Assembly: GCA_963931925.1 (NCBI GenBank)
Contig: OZ007567.1
Location: forward strand, 95,982,176-96,046,175
From: Onchidella celtica
Lineage: Eukaryota > Mollusca > Gastropoda > Systellommatophora > Onchidiidae
DNA length: 64,000 nt
Direction: 5' to 3'
Each line of letters starts with the position of its first letter. Position 1 is the first letter of the stretch. The notes under the pieces are model-generated. The model made no database searches and was not told the DNA's origin. It saw only the letters and a program-made list of their open reading frames with translations. Shown piece after piece: positions 449 to 25,807 of this stretch. A program made the position numbers and the translations under genes.

Positions 449-466
449 GAGACATTGTATGATTTC

Positions 467-1129
467 ATGGCCAAGCTGAATAATCAAGGTGAATATTTGC
501 CATTTTATGACTACACCACTGTGAGCATGGTAGAGGGTGATTTCCAGCCTGTTGAAGATTTCATCAAGAAGAGTCCTCTCCTGAGCAAGCATGTGTCTGC
601 CCTGCCATCATCTTCCTACCATGTCACCATCTTCAATATCTTTACACACCGCAGTGTGCCACAAAAGTACAGACCAAAATCAGGTATCATTCCATTGGAT
701 AGATGGCTTGATCTGGAACTACTGTATCCTGACATGTGTGCGGCTCAAAGACTATGTGATCAATTTCAAGGAGACATAACTATGAAGAAGGAGTCGTACT
801 TCCTTGGGAAGTTGCCAGGCCAACCATTGCTTTTTGAGGTCAACTTATCAAATCTAGAAGAGGTTACCAAACTGCGCAAAGAATGTTCACAGATCTTTCA
901 GAAACCAGATCCTTTAAAATTTCATGTTACCATGGGATATGTATTCAAAGAAATCAGTCAAAATATGGCTCATGAAATGAGTAGTGAGTTACGTTCATTA
1001 TGGGAACTGATCCAACATGAGTACTCCCTTGCCAGGCCCAGTGTTTGCTTCTTTGAATCTATGAAAGAATTTATTCCATTTGATACAGTATTGAAAACCA
1101 CAGGTTTTAAATCAGAAGATAATATGTGA
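467..1129 (+). CDS. 2H phosphodiesterase (DUF1868-type), copy A, terminal exon
   Basis: Encodes a complete 2H-phosphodiesterase domain of about 220 residues. The two signature motifs are YHVTIF (first H-x-T) and FHVTMGY (second H-x-T), which supply the paired histidines of 2H phosphoesterases. Family members hydrolyse cyclic or 2'-linked phosphodiesters; the substrate here is unknown. It is the most divergent copy. The acceptor CTGCAG at 428 would open the exon in the same phase (1) as the other copies, but then an in-frame TGA at 446-448 precedes the domain. Either translation starts at the first ATG (467), a weak acceptor at 448-449 is used (also phase 1), or the copy is dead. The domain itself is undamaged, which argues for use. 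No membrane segment is encoded here. Upstream exons were not found. Confidence 0.75.
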   Translation: MAKLNNQGEYLPFYDYTTVSMVEGDFQPVEDFIKKSPLLSKHVSALPSSSYHVTIFNIFTHRSVPQKYRPKSGIIPLDRWLDLELLYPDMCAAQRLCDQFQGDITMKKESYFLGKLPGQPLLFEVNLSNLEEVTKLRKECSQIFQKPDPLKFHVTMGYVFKEISQNMAHEMSSELRSLWELIQHEYSLARPSVCFFESMKEFIPFDTVLKTTGFKSEDNM

Positions 1130-4483: not shown

Positions 4484-4516
4484 AATATACCCGGTAGGCC
4501 TATCATATAATAACCA

Positions 4517-7500
4517 ATGACAGGAGGGACTATGCAAGGTGTCCAGGTCCATCGGGGTGCAGTGATCATTTGCTTCTTTGCAACCACTTTGGCCATCTAT
4601 ATCCTGTATAGCTACTGGACAGGTGATTTTATAGCAGTTTCATTCTTGAACAGTGAAAACCATTTTGCTACAATGCATTATACAATTGCCTGCTTTGATT
4701 TGTTTTGTGTCCTCACTGTGGAGAGATGAAAAGATTGACATGATCCTTTAGTCTTTTTCTGAAAATCACAGAAAACATATGAAAAATAAGACTTCTGTGC
4801 CCTGTAATATATGGAAAACACATCAATGGATCCAAATTCTAAGACAAGCTTGAATTCCAAAGAAAATACATGTAAAAAAAAAGTAGGATAATTCAGAATA
4901 CCGCAGAAAATTAAGCAAAGATCTATGTCATTGGTCGCCTGTTGGAACGTTGTTGAAACTAGTTGAAGGTGCTGTTCTTAGGGACTGTCGTATTTTACAT
5001 AGAAAGCTATAACTAAGCAGTGAACACAACTCAGTATTTTCTCTATTTGGCTTTATAATTACACTACACTCCCCTAACAACAGCTTCAAAGAGCAGTTTT
5101 AAAGAGCTTACAACAGCTGATCAATGATATGTCTTTGCGTTATAGGCAAGTGAAGTACATGTACAGTGGGAAACTAAAGTAACTCATTGTACACGTGTGC
5201 TGTGATTCAGAATGTCAAAGGCAGAGAGCCAGAGGTTTTAGAGGAAGATATAAAGTATATATATGTAAATATTTTGGGTTTGATCAGAGAGTATGTATGT
5301 TTAGAGAGGTGTCACTATTGGTCAATTTACACTGCGTGACACAGGAGGCTCCGTGAAACCACTATTAGCATGGAGCAGAAAGTAGGTCGCTGCGGTAAAC
5401 AATACCCGTTTGTGCATTTCCACGGGGCGTAATAACTTACAAACGGCTGTAAATAGTTTCAGTCAGCCCAAAATATATGAATAAACCACACTAAACAGAT
5501 ATGCACACTATCTTTGCCGAAGAAGGTCTCTTTCAATTCTTCAATTTCTTGTTTACCGCAGCGACCTAGTTTCGCCATTTGGCGGAAGTGAGATCTCTCT
5601 ATACATCTATATTCTTTGGTTTGATTTACAGTTTTCTACAGTAGTAATCCATTAGTGGGCTCAAGGATGACGTAGTTTCAAAGAATTCTGGAGGTTTCTG
5701 TTTGTACAGCCTGCTTTACATGTATGATTAAAATTTAATAAAATTAATGTTTGTGTATGTAGGCTGATACTGATGAGCTGCACGGAATTCAGTGGTTGTC
5801 AGAATTTTTACCTTTGAGTCCCCCTTGCAAAGAGTAATCCAGGCAAGATGCACAAAATCAGACTTGACTATCAGAACTTAATGTGTTAGAACTGTTAGCC
5901 GCTCACATGTACCGGCAAGAGACACGTATGAAAAGCCAAAATAGTGCAGTGCTTAGATGGGATTGGGTTTTAGGGTTAGTTAAAGGTTGTAGTTTGTGAA
6001 GTGATTTTGTATTTCGTTTCAATGAGAAGAAGAGGAGACTTTATCTGATGATGCACAAACACATGGCAGATGGACAATTCCCAGAAAATGCTCTATGAGA
6101 TAGTATTTTGCTGCACATGTTGGATTGATGAAAGATTATAAGCAGAAACCAATGTCAATGAAAGAGGTGAATATTTCTTGCATTTCAGTATTGTGTATTG
6201 ATTGAGTTAGTGAACATTTTGTTATTGTTTTTCAGCTTCACAACAAACAATGGAAACTATGCAGACTAAAGATGTAAAAGGTGAGTAAAGTACTTTTTGT
6301 GGCTCAGAATCACATTAGCCGCCAATTTTTGCTTTCCACTGTTGCAAGTGAATTCTGCTGGTAGAAAATAAAACTGACTTACTTTACTTCAGATTGCTTT
6401 TGTGCACCTAGATAAATATATAAACACTAGCTGAGTACCCGTTCGATGAACAGGTTTGTGTAGGTATTTTTTTTTTTTGGTAAAACTTAAGACGCCTTTG
6501 AACTAAGAAAGGCATTAATGCCGCATAGATGGCTTATAAGAAGAGATGCAACAACAAAGGACACCACTTCAGACCGAAGGGAATGAGAACAAAAGCCAAG
6601 ATGCATAGGGTCATCCCCAAAACTTGTGATAGGACAGTACACAGTGCAGTGGTGCGCACCGAAAATTTTCAGGAAGTGATGATGTCATGGGCCTTTAATG
6701 CGCATGCGCAGCTTCACTGAAACCTTAAAATGGCGAACCATGACTCGAAATAGATCTAAATGATGCTTAAACAACGAAAAATGAAACGTAGAAGCCTGAA
6801 CATTTCATAATTTCTAATATAGCCCATGTTACTTTCAGATTGATAATATGCCATTGTGCAAAGTTTGAAGCCTGAGTGTGACGCGGTTCCTGAGCTTCAG
6901 GTGACCAAAGTTTTGAGTTACCAAAATAATATAATAAGGAAACAAAGCATGCAGGCAGGAATGTGGTCCACAGATTGATAAAGTAACTGGAATTTTGAGA
7001 GAAGTTTAAGATTGTCCTGTGATGGTGCTTCCACGCAGAAAAATTATGATTGGATTGGGTTGTTGTTTTTTTCGACCACCCCACAATTGGAAAAAAGTTG
7101 TTCAGAGAATGTGATCTGTGATGTCAGAAAAATGCCATTTTTGGGGACAAAAAATGCAACAAGATGCCACAAAAAATGCCAAAAAATGCCACAAAAAGAC
7201 AAACAATGCCGCAAAAAATGCCACAAACGACATCACAATGTCATAAGTAATGCAATGAAGACTGCCAAATATACAGTAAACAAACCAAAAATGGTTAAAA
7301 GTACAGTGCCACTACACATGGAATGACGATGATGGACCCGTGGTTGCAGTCAAGAGATTCTAAATTCTGATTCTGAACACAAAAAGAAAGCGAAAGTAGG
7401 GGTGGGTGTGCTCGCTTGGGTAGTAGAAATTTTCGCTTTCATGAATAATTACTTATGGTATCCGGATATTGATCTAACATGAATTTTTGAAGGTTATCAA

Positions 7501-9324
7501 TGGTTGTGCTTTAAAATTTTTGGACTCGGATACGGGTACTTTCCGGATAATAACAGTCCTAAAAGATAGGAAGTGGCCATTTTTTCTCCAAACGAAGCCA
7601 TAAAAAAAAAAGCAAAAATGCCAAAAAAAAAAAAAGCAAAAAAAAAAAAAACGTTTAAAAAATGCGGAAACATCAGAAAGTGCGGGAAAGAGTGCGGAAT
7701 GCCAAAAAGTGCGGCCGCATTTTCCTGACATCACAGAATGTGATACCTTCCAACATGATTAAAAAAAAAGTATTGATTCTTTCTAACTTACCTACCTGCA
7801 TTTGGTCATATCTTTAACACAACAATCTCTCAAAACACTGCACAAGACCAAATAAACTTTTCATCATTATATGGGGTGATAATCAAAAGAGTGCTGTTAA
7901 ATGCATTTGCTCGTCTGTAGGAATGAAAGGGACCGTACAAAGAGATCGCAGCCCAGTTACATAGTGGAAGAAAACTGAACTAACTATTGAAGAACCAACA
8001 GTAGTTTGATCTGCCAAGAGCATCTGTCATGTTATTTTTCTAATTTAGAACATATTACATGTGTTTATCACATTGTGACTCCTCATACACCTCTTTGTTT
8101 ATAGATGCGTAATAAATTTGTGGTGTAGCTATATATATTAACCATACCTTAGCTTTCCACACAGTAGGTTTGTACATTAGGTCAGCTGCATTTTATCTGA
8201 AGCTCAAAGAGACATGATGCTGAAAGACATTTTCTTAAAAGTTGTCAGTGTTTGGGCAGTAATATGTACTATTATTCAAGTACTTCTAAGACCTGTTTTT
8301 ATTAATGTGTCCATTGCTATATAATTGTATATCTGTAACAAAGAAAGGGTATAAAAAGATATGCTGAAAGTGTTGATCACAAATTTCCTAATAAGACTGA
8401 CTGCCATTTTCACATTTCCACAAAAAAGTGGAAATAGCCAAGGCATTTATCCTATAAATTTTCAGCACTTTATCCATTTTGAAAACTGGCTGTGCCTAAC
8501 TATTTGGACAAGATGCAAATATAATATCCTTTCAAAATTCATTCATTGTCATTGATTTCAAATACCCAACTAACTTTTTTGTGCGGAAAAAAATTACCAT
8601 CGCATAAGTGCGAAGAAGCTACTTTCTATTAGCATACTGTCTTTATCAATTAATCACAGATGGGGTGCAACAAGTCAGAAGTGCACAGAAGATAGATGAA
8701 AATGGATTCTTCCTTCCATTTTTTGGTTACACGATCATCAGCATGGTTATTGACCCTCCCATTGGGGTTGAGAATTTCATACGGGGGACAAAGACATTGA
8801 GCAAATATCTCACCGCTCTTCCTGCATCCTCTTATCATGTCACCATGTATGACATTTTCACCGAGAGGAGAGTCATCCAAAAATATGTCCCTAAATCTGG
8901 CTTGGTGCCATCCACCCACTGGTCACAAGTCATGAATGCTCTGCAATCAGATCTCAGAGAAGCTCAGAAGCAGTGTAATCAAGTAAACAATGAAATAGTT
9001 TTCAAAAAACACAACTTCAGGCTGAACCATACAAGGAAGCGAGCATTTTTGTTGGAAGGAAGTGTTACCAATCAGCAACAGATATCTGTGTTTAGAGACA
9101 AATGTCATTCCATTTTTGGAAAGGATGATGGAGATCGAATCTTTCATGTCAGCTTGGGTTATACATTTAGAGACATTGATGAAGTGGCAGTGAAGAACAT
9201 TGAAAAGGAACTAGAACAGTTGTGGGACAGGATTGAACCAACTTTTAATCTTCAACCACCATCTGTATATTATTTTGAAAACATGACAAAATTCATTCTA
9301 TTCGAGAGTCAATTTGCATCCTGA
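4517..9324 (+). CDS. Membrane-anchored 2H phosphodiesterase, gene B (3 coding exons)
   Basis: Coding exons 4517-4622, 6236-6280 and 8660-9324 join as phase 1/phase 1 and give 271 aa. Exon 1 begins at an ATG preceded by two in-frame TAA codons and follows a CAG acceptor at 4483. It encodes a short N-tail and one hydrophobic segment (about residues 14-32), then AG|GTGATT. Exon 2 encodes a 15-residue polar linker and ends at AG|GTGAGT. Exon 3 carries the whole catalytic domain with YHVTMYDIF and FHVSLGY (H-x-T and H-x-S). The family hydrolyses phosphodiesters in cyclic or 2'-linked nucleotides; the real substrate is unknown. The hydrophobic segment followed by a polar linker suggests a type II single-pass protein with the enzyme outside the cytosol (inference). 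Intron 2 holds an 8-bp-duplication hAT-like element and a CTAGCTGAG repeat; intron 1 holds a TIR element. Exon joining is my prediction from splice signals. Confidence 0.75.
5383..5568. mobile_element. Short TIR element (TA-type MITE) in intron 1 of gene B
   Basis: A perfect 20-bp inverted pair lies at 5383-5402 and 5549-5568 (GGTCGCTGCGGTAAACAA after an outer TA). The outer TA dinucleotides fit a Tc1/mariner-type target duplication. The 186-bp element has no coding capacity. Confidence 0.8.
6428..6930. repeat. Interspersed repeat of the CTAGCTGAG family
   Basis: It starts with CTAGCTGAGTACCCG and shares, at about 6718-6758, an almost exact 40-base block with the insertion at 16134-16596. 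Both copies also share weaker similarity further on (TTTGAAG.CTGAGTGT). It lies in intron 2 of gene B. The class is unresolved and the right edge is approximate. The short open frame inside shows nothing gene-like. Confidence 0.5.
7116..7736. mobile_element. hAT-like MITE with 8-bp target duplication
   Basis: The 621-bp element is flanked by a perfect 8-bp direct repeat AATGTGAT (7108-7115 and 7737-7744). Its ends are inverted copies, CTGTGATGTCAG and CTGACATCACAG, extended by about eight similar bases. The inside is A-rich with many copies of an AAAAATGCC-like word on the left and related words on the right, so the element is internally repetitive. Eight-base duplications are the mark of hAT-type insertion. 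No transposase is encoded. Confidence 0.85.
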
Positions 9325-9648
9325 ATGTCTTGCATGAGGCATTGTTAAATTTGTAAGAAATTTTTGGTAACTATCTGAAAAATGGGGCTTTTTGTGAAAT
9401 AATGCACGAAAACTTTTTTTTTTTTACTTGCAGAATTCTGTGTGCTTTTGTTGTCTGAGTGTGGGATCATATGACAAGTTGTTAATGTTTCATGTTGTTA
9501 TTGCAAAATAATGCAAAATTTTCAAAGAGAACTGTATGTTCATTCGGTCAACATATGTAGATACATGTATAATTAATAACCCATATGTAATAACATTTGA
9601 AAAAAAATTCATGCACAGCCTTTTGCTTGTGTCTGTTCTACTTCACAG

Positions 9649-10637
9649 TAAGCAAAAATCCTACACTATTCGCATGTTCCGATAAAATTGGCGCAAATGG
9701 GCAGTACCTACCAATTTTTGGATATACAATTATCAGCCTGGTTTTAAACAAGAGATGAGGGCATGGCCATTGAAAATTTCATCTGCAGCACAAGAACTCG
9801 GAGCAAATACATCTCCCCCCATCCTGCATTTTCCTGTCATATAACTATCTTTGACATCTTTACTCAGAGAAAAGTCCCATGCAAAAATGCTGCCAGATCT
9901 GGCACAGTGCCATCGTATCACTGGTCAGCTGCCCTGAGTAAACTGCACCAGGACTGTATTTCAGCTCAAAAAGCGTCTGATCAGATGCGCTTACATAACT
10001 TGGGGAAAATATCCAGGTCAAGGTCTTATTGTGCATGGACATGTGTCCGATTCTGGTCATGTCACAGAGCTGAGACATCAGTTATTCTCTATTTTTCCCA
10101 GTGCCAACTAGAAAGAGGTGATATTTTGCCTGAGCAAAATTAAAATTAATATATTAAAATTTATCCCTATTCCCCCCCCCCCCCCCCCCCAACCAAACCA
10201 CCCAAAATTTATTATTCTTTATAAAATATATATTAATATATATTCAAATATTATTATAATACTTTTATTATCATACTTTATAATACAGTTGTGAACTGCG
10301 CTTAACAGGCTGTGTAACAGTTTCCTCTGAGATTGAGAGAGGGAGAGAGAAAGAAAGAGAGAGAGAGATGCGAATCGAGAGAACAAGACTTTCTGTAAAG
10401 CCCTTAGAGCAAACTTGTTTGGATTAGGTGCTATATAAATGATCTCCATTATTATTGTTATTATTATATTTCATTTAAGTCTAGGCTATATCTACAGAAA
10501 GATTGAAGAGAGAGATTTATAAGATATCAAAACAGAATTGGACCAACTATGGAAATTGATACAGCACGGTATCACCTAGAACCACCATATGTCCACTATT
10601 TTGAGAAATGGAACAGTTCCCTACCATTTTGAAACTA
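9649..10637 (+). pseudogene. 2H phosphodiesterase copy C, broken and interrupted
   Basis: It begins after the acceptor ACTTCACAG and follows the family sequence through the first motif, where the usual tyrosine is cysteine (CHITIF). Early frame damage is visible around 9746-9760 (AAACAAGAGATGAGG against AAACAGAGATGAGG in intact copies) and more changes follow near the CACTTACATAA block. At 10123-10467 about 340 bp of foreign sequence splits the exon just before the second histidine motif. The rest (GLGYIYRKIEERD-like region to the stop) resumes at about 10468 and ends near 10637. The copy cannot make a full domain. Confidence 0.85.
10123..10467. mobile_element. SINE-like insertion in copy C
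   Basis: The insert separates GATATTT from CATTTAAGTCTAGG, which are adjacent in intact copies; ATATTT is repeated at both sides (target duplication, about 6 bp). Its left part (GCAAAATTAAAATTAATA ... poly-C) resembles the 3' half of the tRNA-derived SINE at 54041-54518. Its right part ends in GGTGCTATATAAATG followed by (ATT)n, a tail type common in invertebrate SINEs and LINEs. A GA-rich stretch lies in between. It may be a composite. Confidence 0.6.
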
Positions 10638-11671
10638 AACATAGGAACATTTTCATTTATTCTCCATATTACAATGAACAGGGAGCTCAGTTAACAAGCG
10701 TTTTTTTCCATAAGAAATGACATGTACTGTAACTTGTTTATAGGTGCAACGAAGGCAATTGTGGAAAACAAAGCGAAGTTGAATTTTACCTTTGTTTGTG
10801 CATTGAGCTCAGAACATCAAGACTCGGTTGCTCAGTGGGTCTCAGACTGAAACACTTAAGGCAAGACTTGCTAATTCTTTAAGATAAAAAGTATGTTCAG
10901 TTTTTCTCGTAAGGGAAATAATTTTTCTATGTCATCTCAGAACATGGCATAATTTCCCTTACCTCAAGCAGTCACATTGACATTAGATAGCGGGCCATAC
11001 TTTATATACTTCAGTCATAAATTTACAGTTACAGGAGCCAATTTTGTTGTAGTTGCTTTCTTTAAAATGACATTGGCGCATACTATGATTGTTTTATTTC
11101 ACATTCAGATATGTTATTTACTTACAAAATAAAATGCCTAGTTTTTAATCAGACGAAATAGTACTTTCCTTTATATGTGAAGCTCTTTTGGGCATATTTT
11201 ACTACTAAGTATAACACTTTTGTATTATTATGTCTAACTGAAGAGTAAAAAGATAATGGTTGTTATATTTATTACAGTTCAGCCCAGCCTAACACTTTTC
11301 ATTAACAGCTTTGGTGCTTTTTATTGTTGTTTTTTGCTGTTTCTTTTTTAAGTTATTTTAAGTACATTCCAAAAATATTTCCTGAATTCACTGCATATAA
11401 CACATGGTGTTACTGGCAGAAAAGTCGGGGTTTTTTGTGAAATAGTGCTTGGTAACTTATTGTAATTTTTTGCAGCCACAATTTTGTATGCTCTAAGTTT
11501 TGGAGTTACAAGTTGATGTACAGTTTTCAGAAAACTAATTTGCTCATACAATGAACCCAACTATCAATACTATCCCAGTAGAATTTTAAATATATCTTTA
11601 ATAAAAATTTGAAGAAAACTCTGCAAACAAAACATGTACCATCTTTTGGTGTACTCTGTTCCATTTTACAG

Positions 11672-12593
11672 AAAGCAAGAAACCTTCATCATCAGCACGC
11701 TTCGATAAAATTGACGCAAATGGGCACTATCTACCTTTTTTTTTTTATACAGGATTATCAGCATGATTGTAAACAGAGATGAGGGCACAGCAATTGAAAA
11801 TTTCATTCGCAGCTCAAACACTCTGAACAAATACGTTTGCCCCTTTCCTGCATCTTCCTATCATGTAATCATCTTCAGCATCTTTACTCAGAGAAATGTT
11901 CCATCCAGATATGCTCCCACATCTGGCACAGTGCCATCACATCACTGGTCAGATGCCCTGGGTAAACTGCAACAGGATTGTACATCAGCTCAGAAAACAT
12001 GTGATCACATCCATTTAAATAATTTGACTTTTTACAAAGGCAAACTTAATCTGGGAAAATATCCAGGTCACGGTCTTACTGTGTATGGACATTTGTCTGA
12101 TTCTGGTCATGTCACAGATCTGAGACAGCAGTTATTCTCTGTCTTTCCCAGCGCCAACAAGAAAGAGCAGAAATTTCATATGGGTCTAGGTTATACATGT
12201 ATGTACAGGCAGATTAAAAAGGGAGATTTACAAGATACCAATAGAGAATTGGACTGTAATAAAGTAACTCTTGTATACTTTAATTAATGATGTATAATAA
12301 CCACAGTTATATCCCTGTGATCCTAGACAACTGTTCTTTGACTGTAGAATTATTAATTATGCAGTTATGGCTCTTGCTATAAGAATGCCTTGAATGTATT
12401 TCTGACAATAAAGAGTGCAGTTTGAAAAAGTCATGGCTGCTTGATGTTTTGAATCCACGTGCTAGGTTAACAATAACCTCAAAGTCATCACATGGACCAA
12501 CTTTGGAAATTAATAGGAGAGCAGTATCAGTTGGAAGCACCAAGAGTCCACTATTTTGACACAATGGAACAATACCTGCCCTTTCAAAATTAA
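11672..12593 (+). pseudogene. 2H phosphodiesterase copy D, broken and interrupted
   Basis: It follows the acceptor CCATTTTACAG in the family phase. Near 11735 an 11-base T run replaces the segment coding PFFGYT and changes length by two bases, breaking the frame. The remaining frame reads HVI at the first motif (threonine lost) and FHMGLGY at the second (serine/threonine replaced by glycine), so it would be catalytically suspect even if read. At about 12253-12492 roughly 240 bp of foreign sequence splits the exon after the RELD codons, and the C-terminal codons resume at TGGACCAACTTTGG and run to a TAA at 12591-12593. Confidence 0.85.
12253..12492. mobile_element. Unclassified ~240-bp insertion in copy D
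   Basis: Compared with copies E, F and G the exon is interrupted here; the target bases TGGAC occur on both sides (5-bp duplication). It does not end in AG, so it is not a simple intron. The ends (TGTAATAAAG and, inverted, TGTGATGACT) are only weakly similar. No coding capacity. Confidence 0.55.
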
Positions 12594-13407
12594 ACAGAGA
12601 AACACTTTCATCTGTTCTTCATATTAAAATGAACAGCTAGTTCAATTAGCAGGTGTTATTTTCCCTAAGAAATTCATGTATTGTGACTTATTTATAATTA
12701 CATGTACATGTAATGTAACATGTTTATAGGTGCAATGAAGACAATTGTGGAAAACATAGCGCAGTTGAATTTCACCTTTGTTTGTGCCTTGAGCTCAGAG
12801 CATCAAAACTAGGTTGCTCAGTGGGTCTCAGACTGAAACACTTAAGGCAAGAATTGCTCAATTTTAAAAAAAAAAAAATATGTTCAGTTTTCTCTTAAGG
12901 GAAATAATTTTTCTATGTCAACTCAGAACATAGCATGATCTCCCTTACCTCGTGACACTGACAGTGGATAGTGGGCCATATTATTTTGTATATTTCAGTC
13001 ATAAAGTTACAGTTACAGGAGCCAATTTTGTTGTAGCTGCATTCTTTAAAATGACATTGACACATACTATGGTTGTTTTATTTCACATTCAAATATATTA
13101 TTTACTTACAAAATAAAATGCCTAGTTTTTAATCAGATGAAACAGTGCTATTCCTTTATGTGCGAAGCTTTTCTTGGGCATATTTTACCTGTACTTATAA
13201 CACTTTTGTATTATGCTCTCTGACATGAGAGAAAAAAGATGATGGTTGTTATATTTATTACAGTTCAACCCAGTTATGTAGCAAATGCCTTTGTAAGCCA
13301 CACTAGCCTTTACACTTTTCATTAACAGCTTTGGTGCTTTTTGTTGTTGTTGTTGTTTTATTGCTGTTTCTTCTTTAAGTTATTTTAAGTACATTCCAAA
13401 AATATTT

Positions 13408-13685
13408 CCTGAATTCACTGCATATAAGACATGGTGTTACTGGCTGAAAGGTGGGGCTTTTTTTTTTGTGAAATAGTGCTTGGTAACTTGATTTGATGCA
13501 ATTTCCTGAATTCACTGAATATAACCCACAGCGTCACTGGCTGAAAGGTGGGGCTTTTTTGTGAAATAGTGCTTGGTAACTTGATTTGATGCAATTTCCT
13601 GAATTCACTGAATATAACCCACAGCGTCACTGGCTGAAAGGTGGGGCTTTTTTGTGAAATAGTGCTTGGTAACTTGCTGTAATTT
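13408..13685. repeat. Three tandem copies of a ~93-bp intron segment
   Basis: Just upstream of exon E the segment CCTGAATTCACTG ... GGTAACTTGATTTGATGC is present three times, with a 93-bp period in the last two copies, which are almost identical over the shared part. Related two-copy versions occur at about 17050 and 19905-20075. These are local duplications of the intron part of the array unit. The open frames they create on the minus strand are by-products. Confidence 0.85.
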
Positions 13686-13893
13686 TTTGCCACCACAATT
13701 TTGTATGCTCTAAGTTTTGGAGCTACAAGTTGATGTACAGTTTTCAGAAAACTAATTTGCTCATACAGTCAACCCATGTAGGCCCCTACCAATACTATCC
13801 CAGAATTTTAAATATGTCTTAGATTAAAATTGGAAGAAAACTCTGCAAACAAAACATGTACAGCTTTTTTGTCTACTCTGTTCCATTTCACAG

Positions 13894-14564
13894 AAAGCAA
13901 GAAACCTTCATCATCAGCACGCTTTGATAAAATTGATGCAAATGGGCACTACCTACCATTTTTTGGATACACAATTATCAGCATGGTTGTAAACAGAGAT
14001 GAGGGCACGGCAATTGAAAATTTCATTCGCAGCTCAAACACTCTGAGCAAATATATCTCCCCCCTTCCTGCATCTTCCTATCATGTAACAATCTTTGACA
14101 TCTTTACCCAGAGAAAAGTCCCAGCCAGATATGCCCCTAGATCTGGCACAGTGCCATCGCATCACTGGTCAGATGCCCTGAGTAAACTGCAACAGGATTG
14201 TACATCAGCTCAGAAATCATGTGATCAGATCCATTTAAATAATTTGACTTTTTACAAAGGCAAATTTGACCTGGGAAAATATCCAGGTCACGGTCTTACT
14301 GTGCAAGGACATGTGTCTGATTCTGGTCATGTCACAAATCTGAGACATCAATTATTCTCTATCTTTCCCAGCGCCAATAAGAAAGAGCTGATATTTCATT
14401 TGAGTCTAGGCTATATCTACAGAGAAATTGAAGAGGGAGATTTACAAGGTATCAACAGAGAATTGGACCAACTTTGGAAATTAATTGGAGAGAAGTATCC
14501 GTTGGAACCACCAAGAGTCCAATATTTCGAGACAATGGAACAATTCCTACCACTTCAGAAGTAA
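13894..14564 (+). CDS. 2H phosphodiesterase, copy E, terminal exon (open)
   Basis: This 671-nt exon follows a good acceptor (TCTGTTCCATTTCACAG) in phase 1 and stays open to a TAA at 14562-14564, giving 223 codons of its own. Both signatures are present, YHVTIFDIF (H-x-T) and FHLSLGYIY (H-x-S), with the family landmarks FDKIDANG, LPASSYH and a C-terminal RVQYFETMEQFLP. It lacks an ATG or membrane segment and needs an upstream exon; the only phase-matched coding exons visible are those at 4517-4622 and 6236-6280. The enzyme class is phosphodiesterase of unknown substrate. Its first half is almost identical to copy G, while its 3' flank is divergent, which suggests gene conversion. It is the best candidate for a working enzyme inside the tandem array. 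Confidence 0.8.
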
Positions 14565-15016
14565 ACAGACAAACATTTCCTTCTATTTTGGTGCAGCTAC
14601 TTTATTTAAATTGACACTGATCTATATTTGTAATTGATTTATGTCAAACCCATGTCACACCCAAGATATTTTTTATTGTTATAAAACAGAATCTGGTTGG
14701 TTTTCTAATCTGATGAAACATAGTTTTTTTATGTGAAGCTTTTGGAGGATAATTATTAGAATAGCTGTGCCTGAAGGCAATTTTTTTGTGTGTATGTTCT
14801 TCAATGTGAGAGAAAAAAGATTATGGCTGTTTTATATAGCATAATGTGTATTTATGTACATACATGTTATAGATGCTGGTATAAACCTTGATAATTTTAA
14901 CACGTTTTTTCTAACAGCCTAAGGATTTTTTTATTTATATTTTTTGTTTGGGAAAAGGTGGGAGGGTCTCTTGTTTTTCTTCAGTTTATTTTTAAGTTTA
15001 TTTCCTGCATTTGCAG

Positions 15017-15688
15017 AAAGCCAAATGCCGTCACCATCAGCACGCTTTGATAAAATTGACACAAACGGGCACTACCTACCATTCTTTGGCTACACAATTA
15101 TCAGCAAAGTTGTAAACAGAGATGAGGGGACGGCCATCGAAAATTTCATTCGCAACGCAAACACTCTGAGCAAATACGTCTCCCCCCTTCCTGCATTTTC
15201 CTATCATGTGACCATCTTCAGCATCTTTACTCAGAGAAATGTTCCACCCAGATATGTAATATGCCCCCGGATCTGGCAAGGTACCTTCACATCACTGGTC
15301 AGATGCACTGAGTAACATGCAAGAGGATTGTACATCAGCTCAGAAAGCATGTGATCAGATGCACTTACATAATTTGTGTTTCTACAAAAGTAAATTTAGT
15401 CTGGGAAAATATCCAAGTCTTACCATGGATGGACATTTGTCTGATTCTGGTCATGTCACAGAGCTGAGACAACAGTTATTCTCCGTCTTTCCCAGCAGCA
15501 ACAAGAACGAGCTGGAATTTCATCTAACTCTAGGCTATATCTACAGAAAGATTGAAGAGAAAGATTTACAAGATAACAATACAGAATTGGACCAACTATG
15601 GAAATTGATAGCGGAGCGATATCAGCTGGAACCACCAAGAGTCCACTATTTTGAGTCAATGGAAAAATTCCTGCCTTTTCAAAACTAA
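15017..15688 (+). pseudogene. 2H phosphodiesterase copy F, single frame break
   Basis: It follows TTTGCAG in phase 1. It reads normally through FSYHVTIFSIF, then carries a 7-base gain near 15257 (TAATATG repeated) that shifts the frame before the DALS region. The downstream part remains open from 15317 to a TAA at 15686-15688 and keeps FHLTLGYIY (second H-x-T). Apart from this lesion the exon is well preserved, so inactivation is recent, or an intact allele may exist. Its 3' flank carries two further insertions (16134-16596 and 17092-18152). Confidence 0.8.
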
Positions 15689-16133
15689 ACAAAGAAACAC
15701 TTTCATCTATCCTCCATATATTAAAATAAACAGCTAGTTCAATTAGCAAGTGTTATTTTCCCTAAAAATTACAGGTATTGTAACTTGTTTATAGGACTGT
15801 GCAATGAAGGCAATTGTGCAGAACAAAGTGCAGTTGAATTTTACCTTTGTTTGTGCATTGACCTCAGAACATCAAAACTAGGTTGCCCAGTGCGTCTCAG
15901 ACTGAAACACTTAAGGCAAGACTTGCTCAATTTTTAAAAATAAAAAGTATGCTCAATTTTTCTCTGAAGGGAAATAATTTTTCTGCGTCAACTCAGAACA
16001 TGGCATAATTTTCTTTACCTCAAGCAGTGATATTGACATTGGATAGCTTGCCATAATTTATATACGTTCTTCAGTCATAGATTTATAGTGACAAGAGCTA
16101 ATTTTGTTGTAGCTGCATTATTTAAGACTAGCT

Positions 16134-16596
16134 GAGGTCCCCGGCCCTGCCCGGGATAAATCGGTTTGAATATTGGTTTCAGTTCTGGGTGGTTATTATG
16201 GACCTGCTTCATCTGGCCTGTTCCTATTTGTTTATTCTATTTTTGTTTGTTTGTTTTTAAATAAGTCTTACTGCTCTGCCTTTGTGAGTTGACAACCTGC
16301 GCATCCCGTACAACAGCATGATTTGCGCACGGGTTAGTGTGTTTGATAGTGAACACATCGGAGGAAGTGATAACGAAACCTTAAAATGGCGAACCATGAC
16401 TCGAAATAGATCTAATAATGGCGAAACAATAAATTTCCAATAAAAAAAACTACACTGATTTGAGACTTCTATTAAAAACTGTGCACACTTACATCCATTC
16501 TGATGCACCATATAAAATTTGAAGTCTGAGTGTTGAGTGGTTCAGAAGCCTTTTGCAACGCAAAATCTCAAGTCCACAAATATATACAGTATAGTA
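16134..16596. repeat. CTAGCTGAG-family insertion in the flank of copy F
   Basis: Array units read TTTAAAATGACATTGACAC at this point; in copy F the block is split between TTTAAGA and AGATGACAGTGAC by about 460 bp. The insert starts CTAGCTGAGGTCCCCGG and shares a 40-base block (starting GAAACCTTAAAATGGCG) with the repeat at 6428-6930. The target duplication is short and unclear, and the class is unknown. Confidence 0.65.
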
Positions 16597-17091
16597 TAGA
16601 TGACAGTGACACATACTATCATTGTTTTATTTCACATTCAGATGTGTTATTTACTTACCAAATAAAATGCCTAGTTTTTAATCAGATGAAACAGTGCTTT
16701 TCCTTTATATGTGAAACTCTTTTTTGGCATATTTTATCTGTATTTATAACACTTTTGTATTATGCTCTCTAATATGAGAGAAAAAAGATAATGGTTGTTA
16801 TATTTATTGCAGTTCAACCCAGTTATGTAACAGATGCCTTTGTAAGCCACACTAGTCTTTACACTTTTCATTAACAGCTTTGGTGCTTTTCGTTGTCGTT
16901 GTTTTATTGCTGCTTCTTTGTTAAGTTATTTTAACTTGTGTTAAGTACATTCCAAAAATATTTCTTTAATTCACTGCATATGACACACGATGTTACAGGC
17001 TGAAAAGTAGGGCCTTTTTTGTGAAATAGTGCTTGTTAACTTACTGTAATTTCCTGAATATTTCCTGAATTCACTGAATATAACACATGGT

Positions 17092-18152
17092 CAGGGGCGA
17101 AGCGTGGCCCTCTGCCGAGGGTAATCAGAATTTAAGCTAGTAAGATCCTCATAATAGGACGCATCGCTACATCATAATTATGTACATAAATGCAGCGACT
17201 AAAACAATGGAAAGGTTGCTAGGCACTGCAAAAATCTGAAGAGCGGACTATTCTTGTCAACAGGACAGGAATGCAGCAATTTACAAGCCAAACTAATCTG
17301 AAAAACTATTCATTCATACTAACAGACTTATAAACGCATATTTTTCACCCATTTTTAAAAATATAATTTGAACAGCACGTTTTCATTGTCATATTCATAG
17401 CCAGAGATTTTGTTATTCTACCATCTCATAAAGTTTCTCGGAAAGGACCCATTAACATTAAATGGTAGAAAGTGCTTAAATGGCATCTCTGTGACACAAC
17501 AATGTGTAGCGATTTCGGAGAAGCGGCTATCTGCCGTTGCGGTTTAGGTTCGAGCGACCTATCAAGTGAATTGATGTTCTTAATACGTTCGACTGATTTT
17601 GATCACAGTTATATCTAGATCTAGACTATAATAATTATCATTCTTTGATAGCTCTTGCTGTGCGTAGTGTAAATTATTCTTAGATTACCTCAAACAAACA
17701 AAAAAAAAGATCCACACAAACTCTTTCACTCTACTCTTTACCTTTCGATTGGGATGAAAACGACCACACAGTGAAAAACCTGCATAAGTATGTAAAATCA
17801 GGTCAAACCTTGAGTACAAAGTTGTTTTTTTTCCCCACTATTTTGCTGTCTGCGTCGCCGCTTTGAAGAAAACAGGCTATGCTCAAGCTCGCTTCTGGGT
17901 GTAGTCAAGTCTTCTTTGTCTTTGTTAATCACTGATTTTGGACCAGTTCATATGGTGTAAGTCCCTACAAAGATGCTTTTCGGTGAGGGGTGTTAGACTA
18001 TAACAACAAACCCAAAATATCAACGTAGAATAGAATGCTGAACTGACTAAATGGACTTGGAGTTGGGCTCCATCTGAAAAGCGTAGTAATTCTAGAATTA
18101 ATATTCGAAGGGTAATCACTGATTATTTGATTATGAGGAAGCCTCGCCCCTG
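17092..18152. mobile_element. hAT-like non-autonomous element, perfect 8-bp duplication
   Basis: The 1061-bp element is flanked by CACATGGT on both sides (17084-17091 and 18153-18160). Its ends are inverted, CAGGGGCGAAGC and, read on the other strand at the right end, CAGGGGCGAGGC. CAGNG-type ends with 8-bp duplications are typical of hAT transposons. It split the ACACATGGTGTTACTGG intron block of the array unit upstream of copy G. No transposase frame is recognisable. Confidence 0.9.
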
Positions 18153-18425
18153 CACATGGTGTTACTGGCTGAAAAGTGGGGCTTTTTTGTGAAATAGTGC
18201 TTGGTAACTTGCTGTAATTTTTTTGCCACCACAATTTTGTATGATCTTAAGTTTTAGAGTGACAAGTTGATGAACAGTTTTCAGGAAACTAATTTGCTAA
18301 TGCAGTCAACCCATCTACCAGTACTATCCCAGGAGAATTTTAAATATATCTTTAATAAAAATTGGAAGAAAATTCTGCAAACAAAACATGTACAGCCTTT
18401 TTGTCTACTCTGTTCCATTTCACAG

Positions 18426-19095
18426 AAAGCAAGAAACCTTCATCATCAGCACGCTTTGATAAAATTGACGCAAATGGGCACTACCTACCATTTTTTGGAT
18501 ACACAATTATCAGCATGGTTGTAAACAGAGATGAGGGCACGGCAATTGAAAATTTCATTCGCAGCTCAAACACTCTGAGCAAATATATCTCCCCCCTTCC
18601 TGCATCTTCCTATCATGTAACAATCTTTGACATCTTTACCCAGAGAAAAGTCCCAGCCAGATATGCCCCCAGATCTGGCACAGTGCCATCACATCACTGG
18701 TCAGATGCCCTGAGTAAACTGCAACAGGATTGTACATCAGGTCAAAAAGCATGTGATCAGATCACTTACATAATTTGATTTTTTACAAAGGCAAATTTAA
18801 TCTGGGAAAATATCCAGGTCACGGTCTTACTGTGTATGGACATTTGTCTGATTCTGGTTATGTCACAGAGCTGAGACAGCAGTTATTCTCTATCTTTCCC
18901 AGCGCCAATAAGAAAGAGCAGAAATTTCATATGGGTCTAGGTTATATGTACAGGCAGATTGAAGAGGGAGATTTACAAGATATCAATAGAGAATTGGACC
19001 AACTTTGGAAATTAATAGGAGAGCAGTATCAGTTGAAACCACCACAAGTCCACTATTTTGAGACAATGGAACAATTCCTGCCTTTTCAAAACTAA
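18426..19095 (+). pseudogene. 2H phosphodiesterase copy G, single frame break, mosaic
   Basis: It follows CCATTTCACAG in phase 1. The first 115 or so codons encode the same residues as copy E, including YHVTIFDIF. One base is missing near 18764 (GATCAGATCACTTAC where F has GATCAGATGCACTTAC), which shifts the frame into an early stop. The second half is open in another frame (18775-19095), but it resembles copy D, not E: VYGHLSDSG and FHMGLGYMY, in which the second motif is H-x-G and lacks the catalytic serine/threonine. It looks like a conversion mosaic that is both broken and catalytically altered. Confidence 0.8.
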
Positions 19096-20339
19096 ACAGA
19101 GAAACACTTTCTTCTATTCTTCATATTAAAATGAACAGCTAGTTCTATTAAGTGTTATTTTTCCTAAGAAATTACATTTATTGTAACTTGTTTACAGTTA
19201 CATGTATTGTAACTTGTTTATAGGTGCAATGAAGGCAATTGTGCAGAACAAAGGGCAGTTGAATTTTACCTTTGTGTATTGACCTCAGAGCATCGAAACT
19301 AGGTTGCTAAGTGGGTCTCAGACTGAAACACTTAAGGCAAGAATTGCTCAATATTTTAAAATAAAAAATATGTTCAGTTTTCTCATAAGGGAAATAATTT
19401 TTCACTGTCAACTCAGAACATAGCATGATCTCCCTTACCTCAAGCAGTGACATTGACTTTGGATAGTGTGCCATAATTTATGTACCACAGTCATAAATTT
19501 ACAGTTACAGGAGCCAATTTTGTTGTAGCTACAATCTTTAAAATGACATTGACGCATACTATGATTGTTTTATTTCACATTCAGATATGTTATTTACTTA
19601 CAAAATAAAATGCCTAGTTTTTAATCAGATGAAACAGTGCTTTTCCTTTATATGTGAAATCATTTGGGCATAATTTACCTGTATTTATAACACTTTTGTA
19701 TTATGCCCTCTAATATGAGAGAAAAAAGATAATGGTTGTTATATTTATTACAGTTCAACCCAGTCATGTAGCAAATGCCTTTGTAAGCCACACTAGCCTT
19801 TACACTTTTCATTAACAGCTTTGGTGCTTTTTGTTGTTGTTGTTGTTGTTGTTTTATTGCTGTTTCTTCTTTAATTTATTTTAAGTACATTCCAAAAATA
19901 TTTCTTGACTTCACTGAATATAGCACATGGTGTTACTGGCTGAAAGGTGGGGCTTTTTTGTGAAATAGTGCTTGGTAACTTGCTGTAATTTCCTGAATAT
20001 TTCCTGAATTCACTGCATATAACCCACAGCGTTGCTGGCTGAAAAGTGGGGTTTGAAATAGTGCTTGGTAACTTGGACCCCAATGTTGCTGGAAAATCAC
20101 TTTACATTCTGATCCCCGAGCAACAAAAAAATACATATAACACACACATGCAACTGCCACCCCAAATCAAAGAAGACATTTTAAATCAACATCCAAATAA
20201 ATAACATGACATTTGGAAAGGCTTTAATATGAGGTGAGACCAGTGAAAGTATCTTAACCTCTGCATCCTCACATATTTACAGACCTGGTCCTTATGTATG
20301 AAAGGTTGCCTGTGCCAGATCTAGCTGGTTACTATTGAC

Positions 20340-20720
20340 TTAAAGACATGATTCAGTGGCTGTTATTTTCCCATAAAAAAAGAATGGTAACTTGTCTGTT
20401 GGTGTAGTGTATGCAGCTGTGGGGGAAAAAATTGAATTTCATCTGTAATTGTATATTGAGCACAGAATTAGTGTAATCTCCCTTACTTGAAACAGTAACA
20501 ATGACATTGAACAATGTGCCATTTTATACTTAAGAAATCATATATATATTTCTTATCAGAGGGGCTTATTTTTAGGTGCAGTTACATTATTTTAAATGAC
20601 ATTGATGTATGTTCATTGTTGATTTTTATGTTGCATTCACAAACTGTTTTTGTTATTCACCAAATAAAACTAGTGCTTTTATTAATAACCTTTGCCTTTA
20701 GAAATGTATATTAATATGTA
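20340..20720 (+). repeat. Orphan 3' flank of a ninth array unit
   Basis: The landmarks of the unit's 3' flank recur in order and in diverged form: GTTATTTTCCC, AATTGAATTTCA, ATCTCCCTTACTTGAAACAG, TGACATTGAACAATGTGCCA, TTTTAAATGACATTGATG and CAAATAAAACTAGTGC. No terminal exon remains upstream of it; the stretch 20076-20340 shows no motif of the domain. It is the relic of an older duplicate. Confidence 0.7.
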
Positions 20721-22630
20721 TGGAATTATGACCTTTTACAGCTTCTGTGTCCATTGAGCTTGAGCACATAATTGACGTGCTTATTTCTTCATTGTCTTTG
20801 ATCATTTACTAATGATATTACATGTATATATGCTCATTGGATAAGACACAATTAATGTATCATTCCATATTTCTACTTTATCACTTCGTTGATTTGCAAT
20901 GGATGGTATATAATGTATTGATTGTGTTTGTAAATTGTTAATGTTGTCGTTGCCGTTATTGAGAAGTCAGTGTCTGTCTTTGGCAACAATAAAATTTGTG
21001 ACACAACTATTGAGGAAGAGTATTTTCGTGCCAAATTCTGCCAGTTTGAACGGGGATTCCAGCCAAAAAAAAGCCCATTTTGTGTCGTTTTATGAGCCTG
21101 TGTAATCCATCGTTTTGACTGCTTTCCGATGCAGTAGCTACTCAGATAGCCCGTAAACGAACGAATGAAAGGTTTATTGCAGATTAAACCTGCAAGGTTT
21201 ACCCCAGGAAAGACGACTGTGCAGTGTCCTTGTTTCACCAGTGATGTGGTATTGGTGTAACCTTTGGGATAAACATTGCGAAAACACTGTGCATTATCAA
21301 TCGCACCGGTACTTTGATCTAGAGTGGATTTTGACTTCAGGTTTAGGGCGCGCCAGCACGATCCATTACGTTTCGGTCCGTAACAGTTAACTTCGCTGAA
21401 GAACAGGAGAATGTGCAGTTTGCATGGGGGGGGGGGGGGGGGGGGGAATCATCAAATTCAGCAAAATGTCCATGCCTGTAGCCGCAACGTTTAATCTTGT
21501 CCAAAACAGTAATTGAGCAGTTCAAGGAAAGAGCCCTTCAAAATTTAAGGAAAACACATTGACAGTGGGGCCGGTACACAATTTGTGTACATGTCATCGC
21601 TAGACATTGTTAATTAATTTGTTGTTGTGTCTGCCAGATGTCTGTGTACTATGCTAGCAAACTTTTTTTTTTCCTGATAATTTGCGTTTTGGTGAAGATA
21701 GTCTCTCATTCTTCAGCATGCATCATAACTTGTGAGATTTGACAGACGCAAAGTTTTGCACTGGATCACGAGATATGCGCTGTCATGGCCCACCCGTATT
21801 CATTTTAGATCTTATTTTTCTAATTGCATTGTCATCTAATTATGAACAACAGAAACAAAAGGAGATTATGATGATGTGGGTCATAAGTGTTTCATTATGA
21901 AAACATCGTAAAGAGTACTGCTATGTGTATGCTAATTTTCAGGTAAATTAGCAACCTTTTAAAGACGTCATTTAAAAGACGCTATAGATTTAGTCATCCA
22001 TTTGAGAGCCATATTTTTTGGGCATCAAAAAGAAAACGAGCAAGCTAATTACTGGTCTTTGTTTGTCATTTTTATGTATTGTGTGTGAGAGTTTGTGCTA
22101 AAGAACCCATGCTACTGAAAATGCTGCATTTGAAGATAATTCATCCTAATATTCAAAAAACATTTTATATTGTTTTTGCGATGGTTGAAATTTCATGATC
22201 TTGGTTGCAGTAACAATTAATTAAAGAAGGGGTGGCTACAGATGTATAATTTGCCAAAGTAATCCAGTTGTACATTATTCAGTCAACTGTGTAGATCTGT
22301 GATACAGCTAATTAATGCATTCATTTGTGTACAAATTAGCTATTTTATTTTTAGTGGAAAGAATCCCATGAAACTAAAAATTTATTTTTTTTAATTGCCA
22401 TGTACTGCCCGTGGGATTTTATTTTGTAATATTTTATCACCATCAGACTATACTATAATGGAGGTACCAGGTGAACATGTAAGCACATACAACTGAATGT
22501 CTACGTGTACAGAAGCCAAAATGAAGAAACGTTATTGACTGCCTCAATTTTTTTATGATAAATTACGTGGACCTATCCATTTTTGGATAAACTTCAATGT
22601 TTAATAGTTTAATTTAATATTACCTGACAG
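20721..22630. other. No gene; long G run
   Basis: AT-rich sequence without supportable coding regions. A run of about 20 G residues lies at 21427-21447. No terminal inverted repeats were recognised. Confidence 0.45.
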
Positions 22631-22930
22631 AGTCCAGCAGGCTATCAAAAAAAGAGAACGGCGCAAGAAAAGGCCCAGTGGTACTGAACCAACGGAGCAC
22701 TCTTGTCATTTATGCGGAAGGGTCTGCAGGGCAAAAATAGGACTTATCAGTCACATGAGAAGCCATAAGTCATGAAAGAACAGTCTTTCCATTCTGTCCT
22801 CTGTGTCCTTTAGTTCTCTTTATTGTCCATGTGTTGAAATTCTCAACAATTTCTGTTCTTTATTCCTCTGGTGTTGTTAAGGTCATCATCATACCTGATG
22901 GACGAACTATTATTATTATTATTATTTATT
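22631..22930 (+). mobile_element. LINE 3' end with C2H2 zinc finger
   Basis: A short frame ending at TGA 22773-22775 encodes a basic KKRERRKKRP-like stretch and then a C-x2-C...H-x4-H finger (CHLCGRVCRAKIGLISHMR). This arrangement is the usual carboxy terminus of several invertebrate endonuclease/reverse-transcriptase LINEs. It is followed by about 130 bp of 3' UTR containing CATCATCATACCTGATGGAC and an (ATT)n tail at about 22908-22930. The element is strongly 5' truncated. Confidence 0.7.
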
Positions 22931-25106
22931 TACGATTTTTTTGGGGGGGGGGGAAAGCGCGGTTGTGTTGGGTTTGTAACTTCTGGAATTTTCGTTCTTC
23001 TCTAGATGTGCTAGTTAGCGTAATAAGAGAGGCACGGGTCTGTTATGTGTTGTTGTTTTTTTTATTTTGTTCTTATACATCATGGTTGTGGGTTTTCTAG
23101 TGATGGCATTTACTTTGCTGTAGTTATATGCTTCATATGTTTGTTACGTTTTGTTGTTGAAGTAGAGGGATAACGACGAAAGATTCTTGCTCTTCTTATC
23201 CCATATATCTGGCTGACATCTCTGTTACACGTTTGTGCGATGATGAACTGGATTTCTCCTCCTAAATTAAAATAGTAGTGAGTTAACCCATGGTGGAATG
23301 ACGGTCTCCGTTAAGTAATTTAAGTAATTTACTGTGTTTAGTCACGAACTTTTGACAGTATGATCATTATGTTGTGATTGCCTTGACATGTCAGTGAGGG
23401 GGGAAAAGGTGGGGGGTCGTAATTATCATCTTGGGTGGCCTAGATCACCGCGCCATCGCCTAACGGGGTAGCAAAATGTAATAAAACTTTATTATCTCCA
23501 AACAAAAGCGAACTCTGTCATTGCCTGTCTTGTAAAATAGTGGCCTCCCCCTCTCTCTCTCTCCAGTTGCAAGCGAATTCTTTTGTCACCTAAATGAAAA
23601 TCCACGATGAAATGTTGTTTCATACACCAGAAGAACAAAAATTGTATGGGTTTATTTTCTTTACCTCGGCTCCAGCAGAGCATTACTGTGTAACTGTAAA
23701 AAGCGTTTCAATCTGTTTGGGTCCTGCCATGGGGAGATAACCTACTTCACTTATGTGAATCCAAGCATACTTCGTGTAGAAGATAAGAAATTAAGGCAAA
23801 TAATGGAATTTAGTTGTATAATATTTGAGCCCGGCGTATAATTCCCTCATCTAACCACACGAATAAAAATGTTCAGCCCATAACACTGTAAATTTCACAC
23901 CGTGGGGATACAAAGTTATAAATCATAATAATACTGAATATAAATAGCACACTTACGATCGAATTATCTACATGTTTCTTTTATTCAGCTTCAGTGCCTG
24001 TTGGGACACTATTAGTTTATTGGCAGATAAAATGATTTTTTTTCTTTTTTTGTATCTGTCTCCATTAGAGAATAACATATATGAATGTTATATATATTGG
24101 CCGTATTATTTGACCTTTTGCTCCTGTATAGTTTAATTTGATGGCTATGTGAATCTCGATTGTTGAATCAACTTACGATCACATCAGTTTGGTTATTTGA
24201 TGGTACACCTGAACCATGCAGATTTGTAGAGAACAATTAATAAAGATTTTACGGTACTCTTACCCTCGTTTATTTATTTATTTATTTATTCTTTTACTTG
24301 TTCTACTCTTCTTTCTTTTTCTTTCCTCTTTCCATTTTCGTGTGTTTCTTCTCCGTCGTCGCCACTGCTCTTCATTCTGTGGTCTCTTGAGTGCTGGTAA
24401 TACCAGGCTTAGATTTTTATACATGAATTGGTAACCCGTGTAGACACAGATAGCCTTGCATCATGCAAATCTCTCCTTGTTTGCAAGGGAACGGTAACAC
24501 AGTATACAGTAAGACAATGGTGTCTTGAATGCTTTTTCTGGGCATTCCTCTTGTTTCCCTCAGTTGGTTTGCGTTGTCGTTGTTGTAGCTGTCACCGTCT
24601 AGAGCCGTCTTAACGCATGGGCACACCGGGCAGTTGCCCAAGGGTTTAGAGGCCCCATGCATGCAAATTTACATTGGTTTTTGAAACGGTGAAGAAAATC
24701 CCGTGCATTGCAAAGAATCTGCCCAGGGACCCATAATGATGTTAGGATGGCCCTGCCACAGTCACCAATAATCTCCACGTTTTTGCTGCTTGGCTTTCCT
24801 GGTCGAGATAGTTTTTTCTCTGCTTCTCTAGTTCATTTTATTTTTAGCAAATATTTTTGATTTTTTTTTTTTTCCTCATCGAGGAGAATGTAAAAATGAA
24901 AGTTTGTGTTGTTTTTTTTTGTTGTTGTTTTTTTAATCTGCCGCATTTTATGAGAGCCCCACACAGCGTGAGAGAGCTGCTATATATATACCTATTATAC
25001 TCATTGTATACAACAATGCATTTGTGTTGCCATATCTGCCAGACAAAGCCCTAGTAAGTTAATCAACCTTTACTGTATTCTTTTCTTCCTTTGGTGACTT
25101 CCTCAG
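22931..25106. other. No gene; one small hAT-like MITE
   Basis: I searched this stretch for an anchor exon that could serve copy H and found none in the right phase. It holds T-rich and TATTTA-repeat sequence and the hAT-like element at about 24599-24760. Confidence 0.4.
24599..24760. mobile_element. Small hAT-like MITE
   Basis: The left end AGAGCCGTCTTAAC and the right end GTTAGGATGGCCCT are inverted copies with few differences, a terminal type known from hAT MITEs. Flanks GTCACCGT (24591-24598) and GTCACCAA (24761-24768) agree at six of eight bases and may be an aged 8-bp duplication. No coding capacity. Confidence 0.55.
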
Positions 25107-25807
25107 ATGCTGAATCTTCCAAGACCAAGAAAGGAGCGGACAAAATAGATCGTATAGGGCGTTACCTGCCATATTACGGATATACCGTCATCAGCTTTTT
25201 AGAAAACAGCCGTGAGGGTTCAATCCTTGAAGAATACATCAGGAAGTCGAAGACACTGAGCAAGTACTTGTCTCCTCTCCCTATATCTTCCTACCATGTG
25301 ACTGTGTTTGACATTTTCAGCCAAAGAAAAATTCCCTCTAAATACGTGCCAGCTTCGGGCTCTGTCCCTTCAGAAAGATGGTCACAGGTTATGCACGCTC
25401 TGCAAACAGACATGACTTCGGCACAGACAGTCTGCGACAACTTTCAACCAGAACTCATTTTCTTTAAAGAAAGCTTCAGTATCAGGAAACAGCGCGGCCG
25501 CGCCGTCACTGTCCGGGGAAATCTCAATACAGATGCTGTTTTGCAGTTACGGAAAGATTTACTGTCCATTTTTGGTGAGACAACCCGGCCTGATCTTCGT
25601 TACCACATGACTTTAGCTTATCTGTACCGCGATGTGGAGGATATTGACAATGATATGTTCCACGAAGAATTAACTGAATTGTGGTCTAAGGTACAGGACA
25701 GCTACAGACTCAAAAGACCGAGAGTCTGCTATTTCGAGTCAATGGCAGAATTCCTGCCTTTAAAAAAAAATCTCTTTACAGAAGACATAGTCCGCGAACT
25801 AAAGTAA
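25107..25807 (+). CDS. 2H phosphodiesterase, copy H, terminal exon (open)
   Basis: A 701-nt exon begins after a strong pyrimidine-rich acceptor (GGTGACTTCCTCAG) in phase 1 and is open to a TAA at 25805-25807 (233 codons counting the split first one). It has both motifs, YHVTVFDIF (H-x-T) and YHMTLAYLY (H-x-T), and the landmarks KIDRIGRYLPYYGYT, LPISSYH and a C-terminal RVCYFESMAEFLP with an extra 15-residue tail. It stands 5 kb away from the tandem units, shares no flank with them and is of distinct sequence, so it is an old, retained member. Like E it has no start codon or membrane segment of its own and needs upstream exon(s), which I could not locate nearby. Enzyme class phosphodiesterase; substrate unknown. 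Confidence 0.85.

Follow-up and report, generated by a model that had tools for sequence, protein, structure and literature searches.

Loci in which one invariant leader serves several alternative downstream domains have been described, and in PGRP-LC of Drosophila and Anopheles the invariant part is spliced alternatively to one of three PGRP ectodomains, as set out in a passage of PMC2715215. Here, a comparable arrangement is considered for a 2H-phosphodiesterase (PF08975) locus of the gastropod Onchidella celtica, contained in 64,000 nucleotides of GenBank assembly GCA_963931925.1 (contig OZ007567.1, positions 95,982,176 to 96,046,175 of the forward strand). This whole stretch is called the window, and it occupies 95.98-96.05 Mb of the contig designated C1. 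A predicted leader, consisting of a membrane-anchor exon and a 45-nt cassette exon, lies upstream of seven terminal exons, B to H. On balance, the sequence makes it probable that B, E and H are alternative terminal exons of one transcription unit with one anchor.

In Drosophila pip (pipe), the alternative exons supply the catalytic region of a type II enzyme of the Golgi, and chimeric RNAs of CYP3A43 join its leader exon to exons of neighboring paralogues. The pip product is a sulfotransferase, and competing RNA structures are reported for the gene in part of PMC9013439, where the passage on pip speaks of 3′ untranslated regions (UTRs); at the 2H locus, by contrast, a simple test revealed no such structures. 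An excerpt of PMC5793191 mentions CYP3A43-CYP3A4 and CYP3A43-CYP3A5 RNAs. In mod(mdg4) of Drosophila, common 5′ exons are joined in trans to alternative 3′-terminal exons that have independent promoters, and trans-splicing also takes part at lola (both from a passage of PMC12692577), whereas nothing at the 2H locus requires joining in trans. The likeness to PGRP-LC extends to an optional short cassette placed directly after the transmembrane segment, comparable to the 45-nt exon here. In the same passage of PMC2715215, PGRP-LC differs in being a peptidoglycan receptor rather than a 2H enzyme, in the construction of the mosquito PGRP domain from one common and two variable exons, and in having isoforms shown by RNA, whereas those proposed here are predicted from sequence alone.

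As in a shared-leader gene, a start codon and a membrane segment lie upstream at the 2H locus, and the terminal exons are homologous, start-less and of the same phase, three of the seven being intact. The original prediction regarded this arrangement as one not known for 2H phosphodiesterases. Limited literature searches met no 2H-phosphodiesterase gene with it (DUF1868, the other name of PF08975, was not met there either), so that part stands for the literature searched, but the layout itself is already known from Drosophila PGRP-LC and pip and would here be found in another family.

The leader and the terminal exons

Searches of the assembly (1.14 Gb, 43 contigs) and of the window identified eight copies of the 2H-phosphodiesterase exon, named A to H, all on the + strand and between 0.4 and 25.8 kb of the window. 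The reading frame is open in A, B, E and H and broken in the other four copies. The open copies share 38-47% amino acid identity in multiple alignments (B and H have 39-49% identity to A, to E, and to each other) and retain both H-x-T/S motifs of the 2H phosphoesterases, as defined in part of PMC5283653. The first motif is HVT in all four, the second reads HVT, HVS, HLS and HMT in A, B, E and H, and both motif histidines are invariant. Against the curated Pfam cut-off of 21 bits for PF08975, B (25.2), E (27.1) and H (26.9 bits) score above and A (19.2 bits) below, with alignments limited to roughly the first 66-90 of the 116 positions in the model. By score and motifs, B, E and H can be assigned to the 2H phosphoesterase superfamily and PF08975; they differ from other members in the membrane anchor that predicted splicing would add and in the partial nature of the domain match. 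A relative of solved structure was not found by sequence with H as the only query, short-pattern scans for prokaryotic and viral relatives gave 28 and 24 stretches, none of them confirmed, and Rfam returned nothing at gathering score over window positions 1-30000.

The anchor exon (Table 1) has a best 19-residue hydropathy of 2.01, is preceded by an in-frame TAA at 4511, and ends in a donor (CAG/GTGATT) that ranks in the top 0.6% of GT sites on the + strand of the window. Just upstream, a strong acceptor-like site of 9.4 bits, with exon start 4484, hints at a preceding 5′-UTR exon. The acceptor of the cassette exon is among the top 1.5% of AG sites and its donor (AAG/GTGAGT) among the top 0.03%; because the exon is in phase 1 at both ends, it could be skipped in frame. 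Splice-site scores are approximate, having come from untrained general matrices, and the anchor was already known when the thresholds were chosen. Splice-site and frame analysis bore out the phase-1 ends originally assigned to both exons. The further claim that B to H all begin in phase 1, at the same domain position, was likewise borne out, with each exon starting behind an AG acceptor. B has a weaker acceptor than any of the other six terminal exons.

Joining the leader and cassette to B, E or H gives open frames of 271, 273 and 283 amino acids with no internal stop, and the frames remain open without the 45-nt exon (256, 258 and 268 amino acids). As no ATG precedes the conserved domain in B, E or H, each needs a leader. 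In the proposed unit, translation would start at a single site and a single exon would supply the membrane anchor, followed by the optional stem exon and then by B, E or H as alternative 3′-terminal exons, each bringing a complete 2H-phosphodiesterase domain. Splicing would link the acceptor of one of the three to the phase-1 donor at 6280, or to that at 4622, and a choice of E or H would mean skipping B, which has the weakest acceptor. Exons, phases, open frames, a lone anchor in the assembly and the selection on E and F can be read from the sequence; splicing to B, E and H, membrane orientation and enzymatic activity are inferred. The products would be single-pass proteins of 271-283 residues with a common anchor and different predicted catalytic domains, most likely of type II orientation in the membrane.

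Genome searches, which score only the best candidates and may let weak relatives escape, are consistent with a single leader. The 64-residue leader matched the anchor exon (E = 5.7e-17), the cassette exon (0.095) and a stretch with three stops (0.345) at E values up to 10. There was no second copy of the anchor in the assembly search, and the best match in the 30 kb upstream had an E value of 0.66. For the domain, 15 of 16 matches to E fell in the cluster, the other being a 37-residue fragment on contig C9, as did all 10 matches to H and all 10 to A. The Pfam model gave eight matches, six in the cluster (five above the cut-off, A below it) and two elsewhere, both below the cut-off. The protein searches thus place the family in this cluster and one fragment only.

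Table 1. Exons and duplicated units of the 2H-phosphodiesterase locus (window coordinates)
Feature	Position	Strand	Description
Anchor exon 1	4517..4622	+	106 nt; ATG, short N-terminus, one transmembrane segment; phase-1 end
Cassette/stem exon 2	6236..6280	+	45 nt; phase 1 in, phase 1 out
Terminal exon B	8660..9324	+	Intact 2H-phosphodiesterase domain; acceptor 4.2 bits, weakest of the set
Terminal exon E	13894..14564	+	Intact, both H-x-T/S motifs; acceptor 10.9 bits; purifying selection
Terminal exon H	25107..25807	+	Intact, old paralogue; both motifs
Terminal exon C	9649..10638	+	Broken: frameshifts, internal deletion, ~340-bp insertion at about 10130-10465
Terminal exon D	11672..12593	+	Broken: frameshift, ~240-bp insertion, motifs altered (HVI, HMG)
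Terminal exon F	15017..15688	+	Broken: 7 bp inserted compared with E; retains both motifs
Terminal exon G	18426..19095	+	Broken: 1-bp deletion relative to E; second motif HMG
Tandem array C-G	9367..20075	+	Unit of terminal exon, 3′ flank and intron, no anchor
Copy A	449..1129	+	Open 2H domain upstream of the leader; different 5′ layout

Duplication, selection and decay in the C-G array

The C-G units share approximately 75-92% nucleotide identity over aligned stretches, and the E-F gap is more diverged (62-67%). The DNA of B matches E and G over only ~290 bp (70%), and H has no DNA match; B and H are old paralogues that stand outside the nucleotide-level array. The description of tandem units that duplicate intron, terminal exon and 3′ flank but not the anchor holds for C-G and does not extend to B and H. 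Seven catalytic terminal exons had been proposed; only B, E and H are open, the other four being disrupted by frameshifts or insertions, and the Thr/Ser of the second motif is lost in D and G and that of the first motif in D. The C unit starts ~43 bp past the stop codon of B. Homology between the 3′ flank of B and the introns of the units shows only where the C unit starts (at about 9367) and does not establish B as the source of the array.

The 5′ halves of E (13894-14230) and G (18426-18763) have 98% amino acid identity and the 3′ halves 78%, and the best tree of the units differs between exon halves. Sequence has thus passed between units by conversion or exchange, recently so in the case of E and G (gene conversion or unequal exchange).

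In a codon model, the tip branches of E and F together gave an approximate ratio of nonsynonymous to synonymous rates (omega) of 0.41 (p = 0.0006 against 1), with values of 0.37 for E alone (p = 0.027) and 0.43 for F alone (p = 0.010); the C, D and G branches gave 0.68 (p = 0.09 against 1). For the first half of E and F the value was 0.26 (p = 0.0006). A direct Nei-Gojobori comparison of E with F gave a nonsynonymous divergence of 0.117 and a synonymous divergence of 0.417, a ratio of 0.28. Private nonsynonymous and synonymous changes numbered 7:7 in E, 20:14 in F, 43:13 in C, 14:4 in D and 3:0 in G, where the sites themselves stand at ~3.6:1, and E plus F differed from C plus D plus G (Fisher p = 0.016, and p = 0.046 for E by itself). 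Collectively, these results indicate that E, and formerly F, came under purifying selection after the array had formed, as judged for F over its whole branch. Selection on E and F although their units have no recognizable leader is most simply explained by a shared leader upstream. Terminal exons at this locus would duplicate, stay under selection for a while, exchange sequence and decay, as C, D, F and G have, without a start of their own.

Repeats and an inserted element were also observed at the locus. A stretch of ~93-97 bp occurs three times in the intron before E (13404-13685), and two of its copies contain an ATG and a strong phase-1 donor, probably by chance. Another repeat is common to the intron before B (6719-6933) and the F-G gap (16375-16586), with 67% identity. 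A locus on contig C9 (L033, 5012-5460) matches window positions 10027-10461, comprising ~100 bp of the C exon and the inserted element, at 80% identity; it looks as though the element took some flanking sequence along when it moved to another chromosome. The beginning of this element also occurs at window positions 54363 and 61231.

Alternative readings of the locus

If the cluster were instead a row of separate tandem genes, the anchor would serve only B, and E and H would each have a promoter and a 5′ exon not recognizable from sequence (short, non-membrane or distant). Possible leaders can be written. A scan of the first 26 kb for exons that start with ATG, encode a transmembrane segment and have a phase-1 donor scoring 3 bits or more returned the anchor and two others upstream of H, 21638-21731 (donor 5.4 bits) and 24216-24396 (4.8 bits); in addition, a tiny non-membrane leader can be written for H (ATG 22458, donor 8.1), and upstream of E two repeat copies provide an ATG at 13496 and 13589 with a 10.1-bit donor. 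The distance of 18.8 kb from the donor at 6280 to H also favors separate genes. The transmembrane candidates, however, are weak rivals that occur near the chance rate: at the thresholds that they reach, 40 simulations yielded a mean of 0.55 per 15.8 kb, and the remainder of the window contained one equivalent in 38 kb of the + strand and four in 64 kb of the - strand. The original statement that no other phase-1 anchor exon lies between 9 and 25 kb is therefore too strong as worded, as two can be written, but between 9.3 and 25.1 kb no rival phase-1 transmembrane first exon has a donor matching that of the anchor in strength. The candidates for E sit in a tandem repeat, and there is little room for leaders elsewhere: the 324-bp gap from the stop of B to the start of C has no phase-1 leader donor above 0.5 bits, and the 452-bp gap from the stop of E to the acceptor of F has none above 4.1 bits. 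Given these points and an anchor with no second copy in the genome, separate genes seem unlikely.

Partial tandem duplications are common, and only one of the five C-G units, E, is still unbroken, which raises the question of whether the whole array, E included, consists of functionless copies lacking 5′ parts, with anchor-B as the only real gene and H perhaps a separate one. Polyadenylation signals bear on this reading. Each terminal exon had been predicted to have its own polyadenylation site, and the claim is not supported for B, where no AATAAA or ATTAAA precedes the C exon and AAGAAA at 9355 is the only variant (the first canonical hexamers past B are ATTAAA at 10139 and 10153 and AATAAA at 11128). 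E likewise has no AATAAA or ATTAAA before F, where TATAAA at 14680 and 14880 and weaker variants are the signals available and give the claim weak support, and H is followed by AATAAA at 26046. The lack of a canonical signal between B and C would suit duplication debris. E, on the other hand, is open over 222 codons, retains both motifs, and shows purifying selection since the duplication; debris is quite improbable as a reading of the array. Start-less terminal exons with strong acceptors would also be expected if E and H were acceptor RNAs from their own promoters and received the anchor from a separate RNA, a mod(mdg4)-like process with the precedent in flies given in the passage of PMC12692577. 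Since the exons are ordered on one strand and cis-splicing suffices, trans-splicing is very improbable here.

Several observations weigh against one unit with a single anchor and alternative exons B, E and H. In addition to the leaders that can be written for E and H and the missing signal of B, constraint in the second half of E and F was not significant (omega 0.57, p = 0.12; E 0.42, p = 0.076; F 0.83, p = 0.75). Conversion between units makes all of the omega values approximate, and the codon model tested each branch class against 1 rather than E and F against C, D and G. The selection seen in E and F might also have worked via an unrecognized leader, for example one that is short, non-transmembrane or divided into several small exons. 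The genome searches cover one assembly, from this animal. The cassette exon is the sole phase-1 internal exon in positions 1-26000 (acceptor at least 7 bits, donor at least 8.5 bits), but the same scan of 20 simulated sequences gave a mean of 0.45, with one or more in 8 of 20, so that a lone exon of this kind is not unusual by count alone. Finally, a test for docking-site pairing gave the same result as shuffled sequence: in 14 comparisons of up to 500 nt before the acceptors with the first 600 nt of the anchor introns (three shuffles each), the longest exact complementary runs were 8-12 nt in both, a measure of exact runs and not of G-U pairs or gapped helices. With these points counted, a shared anchor still accounts best for B, E and H; of the seven terminal exons originally listed, four are dead.

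Copy A, neighboring features and implications

Copy A was missing from the original set of exons. The one strong acceptor of A scores 12.9 bits (exon start 429) and is followed by a stop in the domain frame at 446-448, so no upstream exon could be joined in frame there; an exon start at 450 would give phase 1, with an acceptor of only -9.9 bits. A is therefore probably translated from ATG 467 as an unanchored form of the enzyme. Candidate anchors for A can be written in the 30 kb upstream, in the form of three distinct first exons with a transmembrane segment and a phase-1 end. One candidate, ~3.4 kb before the window, was rejected as T- and G-rich and unconvincing.

Elsewhere in the window, two 94-bp arms of an inverted repeat (27551-27643 and 28052-28145) are 96% identical and ~0.4 kb apart. 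A LINE-like element at 35669-38822 has two overlapping frames, one with a PHD finger and endonuclease and the next with a reverse transcriptase. Exons on the - strand at 49661-58171 resemble a Y-family DNA polymerase gene, with an IMS match at 57800-58171 and a 628-amino acid frame with ubiquitin-binding UBM motifs at 49661-51547.

More tentatively, and as a possibility that falls short of probable, one promoter and one anchor may serve no fewer than three catalytic 2H exons, and once four or more, whether joined in cis or in trans. These start-less cassettes would arise, come under selection, undergo gene conversion and die on their own account, and the animal would diversify a membrane enzyme through copies of the last exon instead of the gene. 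If this is true, the PGRP-LC and pip layout would extend to the 2H-phosphodiesterase family, and last exons, not whole genes, would be the unit of duplication, selection and decay. Automatic annotation would then tend toward one gene and several "fragments" at such a locus. Should RNA confirm the arrangement, gene counts and single-gene models would miss diversity within the family.
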